DNA of 64,000 bases from Klenkia brasiliensis (GTDB lineage: Bacteria > Actinomycetota > Actinomycetes > Mycobacteriales > Geodermatophilaceae): contig NZ_FNCF01000001.1 in NCBI RefSeq assembly GCF_900100695.1, forward strand, positions 774,060 to 838,059, given 5' to 3'. The translations under genes and the position numbers were made by a program. Within the stretch, counting starts at the first letter, position 1. Each line of letters starts with the position of its first letter. The notes under the pieces were generated by a model that worked only from the letters and a program-made list of their open reading frames with translations, was not told where the DNA came from and searched no databases. Positions 5,942-11,455 of this stretch are shown in pieces.

Positions 5942-7723
5942 GTGAGCACCGGCGCCGCCGACACCTCCGTCGTGGACGACGCCCTGTCCCGGCTGCGCTG
6001 GGACCTGCTGGCGGTCAGCGACGGCGACGACCCGCGGGTCTTCACCGACCTGCTCGCCGACCACGAGGCCGACCTCACCGCCGCCACGTCGTCCCCGCGC
6101 TGGCAGGCCTGGTCGCACGCCTTCGCCGCCCGCCGGCTGCTGGCCGAGCACGACGCCGGGGCGGCTGCGGACCAGGTGGCCGCCGCCCGCGCCGCCGCCG
6201 AGGACGGCCCGGCCGACGCCGAGCGCGCCCTCCTGCTGGCCTACCTGGCCCACCTCGAGGTGGCCGGCGACCGGTTCGAGGCCGCGCTGCACCTGGCCGT
6301 GGACGCCAGCCTGCTCACCGACCAGGTGCCCGCCGACCAGCCCAGCCGCGCGCTGCACCAGGCCCACCTGTGGCTGTCGCTGGCGCTGACCCGGCTGGAC
6401 CTGGAGGAGCTGGCGGTCGCGCAGGCCCTGCGGGGCCACCGGGTGGCCGCCGAGCTCGACGACGACGCGGCCCGCTGGCAGCTGCTCGCGCTGTGCGCCC
6501 AGCAGCACGCCGAGCTGGCCCAGACCGTGCACCGGCGCGGCGACGAGGTGCGGGCCGCCCGGCTGGCCGCGGTGGCGCTGCGCTGCTCGTTCACCGCCAC
6601 CGAGCTGCCGCACGAGCCCGCCGACGCCGAGTCCGACCTGCTCTCGGTCGTGCACGGCTGGTCGCTGATGCTGGCCGGCGACCTGGAGGACACCCTGCCG
6701 GCGCTGCGCCGGGTGCGGGACCGGGTCGCCGCCGAGGGCGGGCCGTGGCTGCGCGGCTACGCCGACCTGGCGCTGGCCCGCCTGCTCTGCCGGCTGGCCG
6801 GCCCCCCGGACGCGCTGGGCCCGCCCGCCGAGGAGGCCGCCGACCTGCTGGCCGACGCGGCGACCGCCTTCGCCGCGGTCGGCGACCGGCGCCGCTACCG
6901 GCAGGCGCTGCTGGAGCTCGGCCGCACCACCGCGGCGCTCGGCCGGGCCGCCGAGGCCCTGCACTGGCTGGAGGCCTACCGCGGCGAGACCGTGCGGATG
7001 CACCAGCGCAGCCGCGAGCTGTGGGCCGACCTCTTCGTCCGCCGCTCCCGGCTGCGCGAGGCCGAGCGGCAGACCGCGCTGATGCGCCGGCACGCCCTGG
7101 AGGACCCGCTCACCGGGCTGGGGAACCGGCGCAGCGCCGAGCGCCGGCTCTCCGAGCTCGACCCGGCCGCGGCACCCGTGGCCCTCGCGGTGGTCGACGT
7201 CGACAGGTTCAAGTCGGTCAACGACAGCCACTCGCACCTGCACGGCGACGCCGTGCTGCGGCGGCTGGCCGACCTGCTCCGCGTGCACTGCCGCACCGGC
7301 GACGAGGTGTACCGCTGGGCCGGCGACGAGTTCCTGGTCGTGCTGCCCGGGGCCGGCGAGGCGCAGGCGGTGGTGGCGATGGAGCGGCTGCGCCGCGCCG
7401 TCGTGCAGTGCGCCTGGGACGAGCTGGGCGTGCGCGACGAGGTGACGGTCAGCATCGGCATCGCCACCTCCCACCCGGAGGCGCCGCGCACCTGGCGGCA
7501 GCTGTTCGAGGACGCCGACCTGCACCTGTTCGCCGCCAAGCGCGCCGGCCGCGACCGGGTGCGCACCTCCCCGCGCGACGGCGACGACGCCCCGGCGCCC
7601 GCCGGACCGCACACCTCGGTCGACGCCCTGGTCGACGAGCTGCTGGGGGCCCGCACCCCGCGCTCCCCCGGCTGGGCCTTCGAGCCCGACCCCGACGCGG
7701 CCGACCCGGACCCGGCGCCGTGA
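5942..7723 (+). CDS. Diguanylate cyclase with TPR-like sensor region (GGDEF protein 1)
   Basis: This 593-residue cytosolic protein has about 370 residues of Ala/Leu-rich helical repeats that look TPR-like, probably a protein- or ligand-binding sensor. A GGDEF domain follows (about 385-535), with DPLTGLGNRR and VDVDRFKSVND. The active site reads AGDEF rather than GGDEF, a variant that is active in some cyclases. An RxxD inhibitory site (RTGD) lies five residues before it, so product feedback is likely. The predicted product is c-di-GMP. GTG 5942 has a GAGGAG box 8 nt upstream. The next gene is a paralogue with the same layout and the same AGDEF variant, so this looks like a tandem duplication. 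Confidence 0.88.
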   Translation: MSTGAADTSVVDDALSRLRWDLLAVSDGDDPRVFTDLLADHEADLTAATSSPRWQAWSHAFAARRLLAEHDAGAAADQVAAARAAAEDGPADAERALLLAYLAHLEVAGDRFEAALHLAVDASLLTDQVPADQPSRALHQAHLWLSLALTRLDLEELAVAQALRGHRVAAELDDDAARWQLLALCAQQHAELAQTVHRRGDEVRAARLAAVALRCSFTATELPHEPADAESDLLSVVHGWSLMLAGDLEDTLPALRRVRDRVAAEGGPWLRGYADLALARLLCRLAGPPDALGPPAEEAADLLADAATAFAAVGDRRRYRQALLELGRTTAALGRAAEALHWLEAYRGETVRMHQRSRELWADLFVRRSRLREAERQTALMRRHALEDPLTGLGNRRSAERRLSELDPAAAPVALAVVDVDRFKSVNDSHSHLHGDAVLRRLADLLRVHCRTGDEVYRWAGDEFLVVLPGAGEAQAVVAMERLRRAVVQCAWDELGVRDEVTVSIGIATSHPEAPRTWRQLFEDADLHLFAAKRAGRDRVRTSPRDGDDAPAPAGPHTSVDALVDELLGARTPRSPGWAFEPDPDAADPDPAP

Positions 7724-7842
7724 TGCCCCCCGTCGTGGCGCCCGCCGCGGTGGTGCCGCTGGTGCCGGTGGGACGGCCGGGGTCCCTGGGGCGGCCGTGA
7801 CCCGGCGAACCCGGCGGCCGCGGCGTGGCCCCGACGGAATGC

Positions 7843-7877: not shown

Positions 7878-10628
7878 GTGCCACCGGGGATCCTGCACGA
7901 GCAGGTCAGCGCTGCGCTGGCGAACTGGCAGCTCGACGTGGCCGAGGCCCTGCTGTCCGACGCCGACGGCGACCCCGCACCCGCGGCCGGGGCGCCGCTG
8001 ACCTCGCTCTCCCGCGCCTGGGCCGACACGCTGCGCGCCGAGCTGCTCGTCCGCCGGCTGCGGATGGCCGGGTTCACCCTGCTCGGCGACCCCATCGACG
8101 AGACCGGCAGCGCGGTCGAGCGCCCGCTCGACCCGCACGACCCGCACGAGGGCCCGCCGGCCGAGGACGCCGGCGCCGGCCGCGTGGGGGCCCGCACCGG
8201 GTCCGCCGGCCACGCCGCGGCGGCCATCGCCCTGGTCCGCTCGGCCCGCGCCGCCTTCGACGCCAGCGACGACGACCTGCAGCGGGCCGCCGGCCTGGCC
8301 CGGCACGCCCGCATCGAGCTGCTGTCCCGCCGCGTGGACGCCGCCATGGACGAGGCGGTCGAGGCCGCCAGCCTGCTGGACCCCGCGCTGCCCCCGACCC
8401 CGCTGCTGGTGCACACCCTCGGCGCGCTGTCGTCGGTGCTGGCCGACCTCGAGCTGATGCCGCTGGCCCTGGACTACCAGCGCCGGGCGCACCACACCGC
8501 CCTGCGGCTGGCCGAGGACGAGCCCGGGCCCGACGCCGGCGGCCTGGTCGGCGACAGCGCCGCCCGGCTGGCCGCGCTCTGCGCCGAGGTGGGCGAGGGC
8601 CTGCTCGACGACGACAGCCCCGACGCCGCCGACCCGCACTTCGCCGAGGCCCGCGCGCTGGCCGAGGAGAGCCTGGCCGGGCTGGCCGAGGACGACCCGC
8701 ACCGGCCCACCGCCGAGGTGGTGCTCGGCTCCGCGCTGGTGGGCCTCGGCGAGCACGACGCCGCCGTCGCCGTCCTGCAGCGGGTGGCCGGCACCGTCCC
8801 GGCCAGCGAGGACCGCGCCCTGCTGGCCGCGGCCGAGCTGGCCCTGGGCCGGGCGCTGCGCCGGCAGGGCCGGGGCGCCGACGCCGACGACCACCTCGCG
8901 CTCGCCCTGGCGCTGGCCACCGAGCAGGGCCTGCCCCGGCTGCGGCGGGCGGCGCTGCGCGAGCTGTGCACGCTGCACGCCGACCTGGACGACGCCGCGC
9001 GGGCGCTGCCCTACCTGCAGGCCTACCTGGCCGACGAGCTGGACCGGGTGGACGAGCGGCGCACCCGCTGGGTGGAGCTGTTCGGCCGCCGCAAGAGCCT
9101 GCTGGAGACCGAGCGCGCCGCCGGGCAGCTGCGCCGGCAGGCCTACGAGGACCCGCTGACCCACCTGCCCAACCGGCGCTACGCCGAGGGCCGGCTCGAC
9201 GGCCTGCTGGCCGCCGGCGCCGCCCCCGCCCTGGCCGTGGTGGACATCGACCACTTCAAGGCGATCAACGACCAGGCCGGGCACCCCGGCGGCGACGCCG
9301 TGCTGCGCGCGGTCGCCCAGCTGCTGGTCGACGGCGTCCGCGACACCGACGAGGTGTGCCGCTGGGCGGGCGACGAGTTCGTCATCCTGCTGCCCGACAC
9401 CACCGCGGAGCAGGGCGAGCGGGCCATGGAGCGGATCCGGCAGTCCATCGCCACCAACGACTGGTCCGCCCTCGGCGTCGACGTGCCGGTGACGATCAGC
9501 GCGGGCATCGCGTCGGCGGCCCGCGGCGACGACCGCCGCACGCTGTTCGCCGCGGCAGACGGCGTGCTCTACGACGCCAAGCGCAGCGGCCGCGACCGCG
9601 TGGTGCGGCTGTCCGGGGTGACCCAGACCCGCGCCGCCGACGGCGCCCCCGCCGACCCGCCGCGGCCGGCGGCGCCGGTGTTCGAGGGCGAGCTGCTCGA
9701 CCTCGACACGGCCACCTCCGGTGATGCCGCGCCGGCCGGTCCGGCGGATAGTGTCGCCGGCGTGCAGCCCCAGCCGACCGACATCCTCTTCGGCGGCCCG
9801 CGCGACGTGCCCTCCCCGCGCGCCGAGGAGGACGACGCGGGCGGCTTCGGCCGGCTGCTGGTGGAGCCCGCCGTGCCCGCTGAGCCCGTCCCCACCCGCC
9901 CGGGCCCGCGCCCGCGGGTCGTGGGCCGGGTGGTCGGCCCTGCCGACGGCCCCGCCGACGTCCCCGCCGCCGACCAGCCGGCCCCCGGTGCCGGTCGCAC
10001 CCCGGCCACCCGCGCGCCCCGCACCGGCCCCGAGGTCGTCCGCGCCGCCGGCCGCAGCACCGAGCACGTGCTCGCGCTCGTCCGCGCCGCCCGGCAGGAG
10101 CACCCCGAGCGGCCCGCCGTCGTCGTCGGCGCCCCGGCCGACACCCTGGTCGCGCTGGCCGCCGAGCACGACGCCTACACGACGATGGACCACGCGGCGA
10201 TGGCCGCCGCAGTCGGGCCGCTGCCCGAGCCGCGGGGGCGGGTGGTGGTGCTCGGCGCCGGGTCGGTGGACACCGCCGTCGCCGCCGAGGCCGCGTTCCT
10301 GGCCCGGGTCGGCGGCACCGAGGTGGTCCGCGTCGAGGACGTCGGCGTCGCCGCCGTGCCGGCGCTGCTGGCCGACGGGTCGCTGCTGGCGGACGCCGGG
10401 TGCGTGGTCGTCGTGGCCGGCACCGACGCGGCCCTGGCCACCGCGGTCGCCGGTGCCACCGAGGTGCCCGTCGTCGCCGTCCCCACGTCGGGCGGGCAGT
10501 CGGGGGCCCTCGCCGGCATCGGCGCGCTCCTGACGATGCTCAACTCCGGCACCGCCGGGGTGGTGGTCTCCGCGGTCGACGACGGCTGCGCCGCCGGGGT
10601 CGTGGCCGCCCGCATCGCCCGGCGCTGA
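7878..10628 (+). CDS. GGDEF protein 2 continuing in frame into a LarB-like domain
   Basis: The 916-residue reading frame starts with TPR-like helices (about residues 1-400). A GGDEF domain follows (about 420-575, DPLTHLPNRR, RWAGDEF) with an intact RxxD inhibitory site (RDTD). A Pro/Ala-rich linker (about 580-710) leads to a LarB-like domain (about 711-916). LarB carboxylates and hydrolyses nicotinate adenine dinucleotide to start nickel-pincer cofactor synthesis. The LarB region is recognised from TGPEVVRAAGRSTEHV, VVVAGTDAALATAVAG and VPTSGGQSGALAGIGALL. It departs from the family at MLNSGTAG, where family members usually read MLNSCA, and at DDGCAAG for the usual DNGxGA. No larC, larE or larA is nearby. 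A second start at GTG 9762 could make the LarB-like part alone. Confidence 0.8.
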   Translation: MPPGILHEQVSAALANWQLDVAEALLSDADGDPAPAAGAPLTSLSRAWADTLRAELLVRRLRMAGFTLLGDPIDETGSAVERPLDPHDPHEGPPAEDAGAGRVGARTGSAGHAAAAIALVRSARAAFDASDDDLQRAAGLARHARIELLSRRVDAAMDEAVEAASLLDPALPPTPLLVHTLGALSSVLADLELMPLALDYQRRAHHTALRLAEDEPGPDAGGLVGDSAARLAALCAEVGEGLLDDDSPDAADPHFAEARALAEESLAGLAEDDPHRPTAEVVLGSALVGLGEHDAAVAVLQRVAGTVPASEDRALLAAAELALGRALRRQGRGADADDHLALALALATEQGLPRLRRAALRELCTLHADLDDAARALPYLQAYLADELDRVDERRTRWVELFGRRKSLLETERAAGQLRRQAYEDPLTHLPNRRYAEGRLDGLLAAGAAPALAVVDIDHFKAINDQAGHPGGDAVLRAVAQLLVDGVRDTDEVCRWAGDEFVILLPDTTAEQGERAMERIRQSIATNDWSALGVDVPVTISAGIASAARGDDRRTLFAAADGVLYDAKRSGRDRVVRLSGVTQTRAADGAPADPPRPAAPVFEGELLDLDTATSGDAAPAGPADSVAGVQPQPTDILFGGPRDVPSPRAEEDDAGGFGRLLVEPAVPAEPVPTRPGPRPRVVGRVVGPADGPADVPAADQPAPGAGRTPATRAPRTGPEVVRAAGRSTEHVLALVRAARQEHPERPAVVVGAPADTLVALAAEHDAYTTMDHAAMAAAVGPLPEPRGRVVVLGAGSVDTAVAAEAAFLARVGGTEVVRVEDVGVAAVPALLADGSLLADAGCVVVVAGTDAALATAVAGATEVPVVAVPTSGGQSGALAGIGALLTMLNSGTAGVVVSAVDDGCAAGVVAARIARR
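9749..9764 (+). promoter_or_regulatory. Possible internal leaderless promoter and start for the LarB-like part
   Basis: TAGTGT (9749-9754) is followed after 7 nt by GTG 9762, in frame with the long gene. Initiation here would give a 288-residue LarB-like protein, near the family length. I find no convincing -35 at the expected distance, so this is a weak alternative to a true fusion. Confidence 0.35.
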
Positions 10629-10681: not shown

Positions 10682-10835
10682 GGGTCCTCTCCCAGCGAAG
10701 GGGAGTAGCCCCCCAATCTCGTGGTCGACATGCTGGCGCTCCGGCGCCCGGTCACGAGGGCCTCGGGAGACCGGGGCGGGCGAGACCTTCGACCCAGGTA
10801 CATCCGTGTGCCGGGTCGAGGTCTCGCGAGGACCC
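10682..10835 (+). ncRNA. Probable yybP-ykoY manganese riboswitch
   Basis: The leader before the GDT1-type manganese exporter gene is highly structured. GGGTCCTC (10682-10689) pairs perfectly with GAGGACCC (10828-10835) to close the element. Inside is the hallmark AGGGGAGTAG (10699-10708), then CTCGTG (10719-10724) pairing with CACGAG (10753-10758). A long arm, GCGAGACC with TCGACCC against GGGTCGAGGTCTCGC (about 10780-10827), follows. The conserved GGGGAGTAG, the multi-stem layout and the downstream gene type all match the yybP-ykoY family, which senses Mn2+ and turns on efflux. The long 3' arm may be part of the expression platform. Only 32 nt separate the element from the start codon. Confidence 0.8.
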
Positions 10836-10867: not shown

Positions 10868-11455
10868 GTGGACGCAGTCTTCTACAGCACCGTGCTCAGC
10901 TTCGGTGTCATCTTCGTCGCCGAGCTCGGTGACAAGTCCCAGCTCATGGCGCTCACGTTCGCCACCCGCTACAAGATCGTGCCGACCCTCATCGGCATCA
11001 CGGTCGCCACCGCGGTCGTGCACCTGGCCTCGGTGGGCATCGGCTACGGCCTGGGCGTCTCGCTGCCCACCGCCTGGATCAGCCTGGTGGCCGCGCTGGC
11101 CTTCATCGCGTTCGGCTTCTGGACGCTGCGCGGCGACGAGCTCAGCGACGACGAGAGGGACAAGGTCAACCGGACCACGAAGTCGGCGATCATCGCCGTC
11201 GGCACGGCCTTCTTCCTCGCCGAGCTGGGCGACAAGACCATGCTCGCGACCATCACGCTGGCCACCGACCACGGCTGGTTCGGCACCTGGCTGGGCTCGA
11301 CGCTGGGCATGGTCGCCGCGGACGCGCTGGCCATCGTGGTCGGCCGCTGGCTGGGCAAGAGCCTGCCGGAGAAGACCATCAAGTACGGCGCCGCGGCGCT
11401 GTTCTTCCTCTTCGGCGCCTGGCTGCTGATCGAGGCCATCACCGAGCTGACCTGA
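10868..11455 (+). CDS. TMEM165/GDT1 (UPF0016) family membrane protein, probable Mn2+ exporter
   Basis: This 195-residue integral membrane protein has about six hydrophobic segments in two repeats. Each repeat carries the family signature E-x-G-D-K-S/T: ELGDKSQ (about residues 18-24) and ELGDKTM (about 119-125). The acidic residues line the cation path. Bacterial members export manganese and protect against its excess. A short cytosolic acidic loop (RGDELSDDERDK) separates the halves. GTG 10868 follows an AGAGAGG box. The upstream manganese-riboswitch candidate supports the substrate assignment. The stop sits inside a terminator hairpin. Confidence 0.92.
   Translation: MDAVFYSTVLSFGVIFVAELGDKSQLMALTFATRYKIVPTLIGITVATAVVHLASVGIGYGLGVSLPTAWISLVAALAFIAFGFWTLRGDELSDDERDKVNRTTKSAIIAVGTAFFLAELGDKTMLATITLATDHGWFGTWLGSTLGMVAADALAIVVGRWLGKSLPEKTIKYGAAALFFLFGAWLLIEAITELT

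Follow-up and report, generated by a model that had tools for sequence, protein, structure and literature searches.

The window analysed here is a stretch of 64,000 nucleotides from the genome of Klenkia brasiliensis. It contains an uninterrupted frame at 7878-10628 that joins a diguanylate cyclase to a LarB-like domain, in agreement with the original prediction made for this DNA. The frame and a gene ahead of it have the following features:

5942-7723, + strand: tandem upstream diguanylate cyclase, a paralog (GGDEF, E 6.5e-33)
7878-10628, + strand: whole open frame of 916 aa, comprising TPR-like region, GGDEF domain, linker and putative pseudo-LarB domain
7878-9140, + strand: TPR-like helical N-terminal region (best TPR match at about 8640-9002)
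9141-9599, + strand: GGDEF diguanylate cyclase domain (PF00990, E 6.3e-39)
9339-9350, + strand: RxxD motif of the inhibitory site, here RDTD (from the sequence)
9366-9380, + strand: AGDEF active-site signature (from the sequence)
9609-10007, + strand: Pro/Ala-rich linker, of varying length in orthologs (ortholog comparison)
10008-10625, + strand: putative pseudo-LarB domain with a PurE-like fold (NF033503 profile, AF2 and Foldseek)
10266-10268, + strand: codon at the position of LarB Ser127, encoding Val (alignment)
10548-10550, + strand: codon at the position of LarB Cys221, encoding Gly (alignment)

Translation probably starts at the GTG at 7878, since the sequence VPPGILH is common to all three of the relatives read; an alternative ATG at 7839 is found in one of the three. 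In a Pfam profile search of the window protein PF00990 spans residues 422-574 with a score of 133.8 bits against a cut-off of 23.8, and AGDEF starts five residues after the RxxD motif. The GGDEF domain and RxxD site are intact, as had been claimed. From what is generally known of such domains, this half of the protein would make c-di-GMP and be subject to product inhibition at RxxD. The assignment of the region ahead of it as TPR is the weakest of the domain labels. TPR models match the window protein weakly and below their cut-offs, around residues 255-375, and one of them (TPR_MalT) gives hits with E values up to 0.01 in 31 of 41 orthologs. The region is helical in the AF2 model (mean pLDDT 79.2), and the 50 PDB matches listed for the model of the N-terminal half are all GGDEF proteins, with no TPR protein among them.

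The neighbourhood was compared at the 54 fused loci of named genomes that have full flanks. A separate upstream cyclase, 58-81% identical to that of the window, is present at all 54, and the count is the same under stricter limits that guard against the fusion's own GGDEF domain being taken for it. Neither this tandem cyclase nor the larC gene found downstream of the fusion in relatives had been remarked on in the original prediction. The gene nadE, to which attention had been drawn, does lie close by (about 1.8 kb downstream of the fusion, on the opposite strand), but a shared link to the fusion did not hold up: nadE occurs within 4 kb at two of the 54 loci, both in Klenkia, and as a conserved partner it is excluded within that 4 kb flank.

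Conservation of the join in Geodermatophilaceae

A LarB-domain search of 96 Geodermatophilaceae genomes found an orthologous fused-type LarB domain in 86, a free LarB alone in nine and no LarB in one (G040). The original prediction had called for the two halves to be searched for in this family and had named a stop between them in close relatives as the mark of an accident or error. At the 80 assessable loci, which leave out six at contig ends (L017, L031, L036, L061, L081 and L092), the cyclase and LarB halves are in the same frame at 78, and the linker carries a frameshift in the other two (G037 and G078). A further locus, L244, apparently on a second contig of the genome (G083) to which the cut L036 piece belongs, also shows the join, with the same frame length of 919 aa. 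Among the 78 in-frame orthologs RxxD is kept throughout and the active-site signature is AGDEF in 74 and AGDEY in four; the GGDEF domain of the window is 75-99% identical to theirs.

Across these 78 loci the linker takes 56 different lengths between 69 and 174 aa, and in the coding frame none of them contains a stop. The same linkers are also open in the other forward frames in 24 and 50 cases, and in the reverse frames in 73, 72 and 11. Openness of the frame alone is weak evidence because so many linkers are also open in reverse in this GC-rich DNA. The dN/dS ratio of the linker was calculated for 18 chosen pairs, of which 13 lack larC, and was between 0.23 and 0.75, below 1 in every pair (in the same analysis the TPR plus GGDEF column takes in some sequence upstream of the gene). 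With the frame kept through many changes of length and a linker dN/dS below 1, the join is no accident. Sequencing error and a chance frame are both excluded by the 78 of 80 loci in frame, the 56 linker lengths and the linker dN/dS.

A scan of named genomes, which overlaps the 96-genome set and is not an independent count, showed the join in 57 of 61 fused-type loci among the best 80 loci, with the other four cut by contig edges. The genera with fused-type loci include Klenkia, Modestobacter, Blastococcus, Geodermatophilus and Goekera. The motif test applied to the named loci was for CRWAGDEF/Y only, and this motif was not present in frame at any of the 19 non-fused loci, which belong to Nocardioides, others and one Geodermatophilaceae MAG. 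Among the matches listed for an order sample (298 genomes) and a phylum sample (396 genomes), no fusion was seen outside the family. Around outgroup LarBs scoring more than 100 bits the longest frames among the matches listed for the order were 882, 668, 590, 577, 552 and 546 aa, and the longest among those listed for the phylum sample was 681 aa. No GGDEF-type motif was found in frame at the 20 outgroup loci read, all from the order sample, which take in five of these six longest order frames, that of G187 (552 aa) being the sixth. No report of a fusion between LarB and a diguanylate cyclase was found in the open-access literature, a scope outside which subscription papers mostly fall.

The LarB-derived domain

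Positions 4-208 of the 209 in the NF033503 profile align to residues 711-915 of the window protein (E 2.1e-37). The score of 128.9 bits (132.8 in the genome search) is below the family cut-off of 175. PF00731, the PurE profile, matches the same domain weakly (29.3 bits against a cut-off of 30). The AF2 model of the domain has a pLDDT of 90.9 and its best PDB match in Foldseek is LarB (8std) with a TM score of 0.87 and about 35% identity; S127A structures are also among the LarB matches.

Residues were compared by alignment to L. plantarum LarB, whose numbering is used here, with the free-LarB reference being the 45 read of those listed in the family and order samples. Cys221, the catalytic cysteine of LarB, is present in all 45 free LarBs and absent from all 86 fused domains, where the position is occupied by Ala (69), Ser (7), Gly (4, including the window), Thr (4) or Pro (2). 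The roles of Cys221 and Glu180 are reportedly set out in a 2021 PNAS paper on the LarB mechanism. Ser127 is found in 42 of the 45 free LarBs and in none of the 86 fused domains, the window having Val. Lys57, invariant in the free LarBs (45/45), is Arg in 84 of the 86; Tyr204 occurs in none of them, and H158 and R159 are mostly replaced. The fused LarB is, on these residues and the high-confidence model, a pseudoenzyme with its fold intact.

Other residues of LarB are kept. D128, E134, D151, an acid at 180, P199-T200-S201, D231 and G233 are retained in 96-100% of the fused domains, and 25 columns, D128, E134, D151, P199-T200-S201, D231 and G233 among them, reach 95% conservation or more both in the 45 free LarBs and in 85 fused copies (this second comparison leaves out L036, which was read separately). 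Residues that are new and common to the fused copies have also appeared, namely K57 to R (84/85), G156 to R (77/85) and G181 to A (85/85), and a C-terminal helix with the sequence ARIARR is almost invariant. With polar residues kept and new ones become common, the pattern resembles an altered pocket more than it does drift.

The constraint is weaker in the genus of the window. LarB-domain dN/dS is 0.22-0.37 there (six pairs), and the window copy departs from the clade at ten of the 103 columns that the clade conserves, against a median of three, though four other copies depart more. Among the residues that it does not have are the clade's Arg156 and Arg158. In G040, a genus mate with no LarB match, the cyclase is kept at 93% identity and the frame stops inside the former linker. 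Taken together, the higher dN/dS, the departed residues and the loss in G040 raise the possibility that in this genus the role of the domain is being lost.

Nickel-pincer genes and the origin of the fusion

The absence of larC and larE that had been reported for the window extends to the whole K. brasiliensis genome, in which larC has no match and larE none over the cut-off (best E 3.3e-5). No second LarB was found there; the only other match, of 31.3 bits at model positions 81-207, we take for PurE. On gene content, the fusion has no part in making the nickel-pincer cofactor in K. brasiliensis. In the family as a whole, larC is found in 69 of the 96 genomes and larE, over the cut-off, in 62. 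In 25 of the 86 fused genomes, K. brasiliensis included, the fusion is still there although larC, larE over the cut-off and a free LarB are all missing, and each of these 25 has one LarB match; G006 has two. Seven further fused genomes have larC with no larE over the cut-off and no free LarB, one of them (G050) being 73% complete. In a quick tree of the 78 cyclase parts, for which the support is SH-aLRT only, well-supported branches require at least seven gains or losses of the pathway-less condition.

Purifying selection acts on the LarB domain in two groups that lack larC and lie outside the genus of the window: dN/dS there is 0.05-0.15 in seven pairs, lower than the linker values given above. 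The five pairs that are not larC-less have 0.07-0.19. Since the domain is kept with low dN/dS in groups without the pathway, its function there would be independent of the nickel-pincer pathway. That the fusion is an active enzyme for the nickel-pincer precursor is excluded by the loss of Cys221 and Ser127 in 86 of 86 domains and by the absence of the partners here. The tie to NaAD chemistry that the original prediction had put forward is, as far as carboxylation goes, unsupported, in view of the same missing residues, the sub-cut-off score and the persistence of the fusion in the 25 pathway-less genomes.

In a tree of 72 LarBs, the 27 fused sequences form one branch (support 100/100, stem 0.82). 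Its group also takes in free LarBs from two deep genera (g8 and g10) and from further families within the order, the placement of this long branch having support of 88/96 under a midpoint root. The larB and larC matches of g8 and g10 are 30-93 bases apart, larB coming first. Of the 61 larC-bearing fused genomes, 37 have larC within 500 bp downstream of the fusion and in the same orientation; 15 more have it at up to 4.8 kb, and in the remaining nine it adjoins a free larB. No close match to the TPR-GGDEF part was found in the nine genomes of g5, g8 and g10 (best E 2.0e-23). The single fused clade and the larC directly downstream in relatives point to a probable capture from a larB-larC operon, which, from the tree and the gene order, is the simplest history. 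In an ancestor of most Geodermatophilaceae an upstream TPR-GGDEF cyclase would have captured in frame the larB at the head of the operon. The captured larB would then have lost catalysis, and the free catalytic LarBs of other branches would serve those genomes that still make the cofactor.

Possible roles of the domain

Residues and model together lead us to favour, if by a modest measure, a diguanylate cyclase that carries a retired LarB as a regulatory or oligomerising module. The pseudo-LarB would regulate the attached cyclase, and its oligomerisation would set the state in which the GGDEF domains pair. LarB and PurE are octamers, and it is from this octameric habit that such a role in pairing is suggested. 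Judging by the conserved residues, the domain would most likely bind a nucleotide of the sort that fits a LarB-type pocket (NaAD, NAD or an AMP-like molecule) but not carboxylate it; NaAD or a related dinucleotide may be bound with no turnover. As the fusion persists in genomes without the pathway, the ligand should be a universal one such as NaAD, NAD or AMP and not a pathway intermediate. A more tentative extension, which we consider less likely than not, is that this is a new metabolite-sensing domain, in which the pocket of a former NaAD carboxylase would read a pyridine or adenine nucleotide (NaAD, NAD or AMP-like) and gate c-di-GMP synthesis, coupling NAD metabolism to this signal throughout the family.

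The main rival is that the pseudo-LarB is purely a scaffold, which would only multimerise and bring the GGDEF domains together without any ligand. The LarB/PurE fold kept in the model and the almost invariant C-terminal helix would both fit such a scaffold, and a flexible linker of changing length is better suited to tethering than to rigid signal transfer. There is, however, no obvious need in a scaffold for the retention of D128, E134, D151, T200, S201 and D231 in 96-100% of copies, or for the new common residues at K57, G156 and G181, and we give this explanation perhaps one chance in a few.

Another conceivable role for the pseudo-LarB is in control of the nickel-pincer pathway, for instance through mixed oligomers with a catalytic LarB or recruitment of LarC. 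The proximity of larC described above would fit, as would the presence of a free LarB in 54 of the 61 genomes (a count of matches), the 16 of these that were read all keeping the Cys. This idea is improbable nonetheless, as descent from the larB-larC operon accounts for the position of larC, and a pathway regulator would not be expected to persist in 25 of 86 genomes that have no pathway, with low dN/dS in two such groups. A neutral remnant, fused by accident, functionless and decaying, might explain the lost active-site residues, the missing domain in G040 and the raised dN/dS in the window's genus; yet the domain is kept in 86 of 96 genomes and in several named genera, dN/dS is 0.05-0.15 in the two other larC-less groups and the new residues are clade-wide, all of which leaves decay with little to recommend it. 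That two separate genes merely share an open frame, LarB being made from an internal start, is hardly credible, for while stops are few in GC-rich DNA and the linkers are also open in 50 of 78 cases in one other forward frame and in 73 and 72 in two reverse frames, 78 of 80 loci keep a single frame despite the 56 linker lengths and the linker dN/dS is below 1 in 18 of 18 pairs.

The fusion provides a clear natural case in which an enzyme of cofactor biosynthesis was captured, most likely from its own operon, lost catalysis and was kept in a second-messenger enzyme. Should the domain bind a nucleotide, this would be an input new to diguanylate cyclases, connecting NAD-type metabolites directly with c-di-GMP in this actinobacterial family. 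There is also a warning here for annotation, in that a match to LarB in these genomes is not evidence of nickel-pincer cofactor synthesis.

Among known proteins, the domain is closest to LarB, the pyridinium-3,5-biscarboxylic acid mononucleotide synthase (NF033503; PDB 7MJ0, 7MJ1 and 8STD), with which it has in common the fold, D128, E134, D151, the acid at 180, PTS199-201 and D231. It differs from LarB in the absence of Cys221, Ser127 and Y204, in the change of K57 to R, in scoring below the family cut-off and in its position C-terminal to a cyclase. With PurE, or AIR carboxylase (PF00731), it has in common the core fold of the C-terminal part, and both sequence and structure place it nearer to LarB than to PurE. 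A parallel may be drawn with the plant protein PDX1.2, a regulatory pseudoenzyme that is likewise reported to be a dead homolog kept as a regulator; this is an analogy and not homology, and PDX1.2, unlike the fused LarB, is not joined to a cyclase. The other half of the protein resembles the GGDEF diguanylate cyclases PleD, DgcB and SiaD in its domain, active-site signature and RxxD motif. Other diguanylate cyclases usually bear PAS, GAF, REC or similar inputs. What sets the fusion protein apart from PleD, DgcB and SiaD is the TPR-like region before its GGDEF domain and the LarB-derived domain behind it.

The upstream cyclase

The fusion stands in tandem with a second cyclase gene:
5942-7723, + strand: second GGDEF cyclase, in tandem with the fusion

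Among the matches listed, a homologue of this cyclase was found as a separate gene 5' of the fusion at all 54 named fused loci with full flanks, and the two proteins may act jointly.

The 3' flank

Two features follow the fusion:
10688-10824, + strand: match to RF00080 (30.1 bits, E 9.7e-07), probably a manganese riboswitch
about 10868-11455: GDT1-family divalent cation antiporter gene, immediately 3' of the probable riboswitch

The riboswitch assignment is a probable one, its score falling under the RF00080 gathering score of 45. GDT1 lies near the fusion at only 2 of the 54 named fused loci (full flanks, among the matches listed) and is therefore a non-conserved neighbour.

Variation among relatives

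Four orthologues in genus group g11 (L016, L029, L038 and L047) carry AGDEY instead of AGDEF at the cyclase active site. In G040, a genus mate, the cyclase of locus L172 has no LarB domain and its reading frame stops within the former linker; the remaining cyclase is 93% identical to that of the window.

Searches of five genomes of genus group g12 (G020, G044, G049, G060 and G072, with loci such as L075, L065 and L080) found no larE over the cut-off and no free LarB. larC is retained in these genomes with a lower score, 311-361 bits as against 396-446 bits for those matches elsewhere that are neither split nor cut, and in four of the five it lies 50 bases 3' of the fusion.
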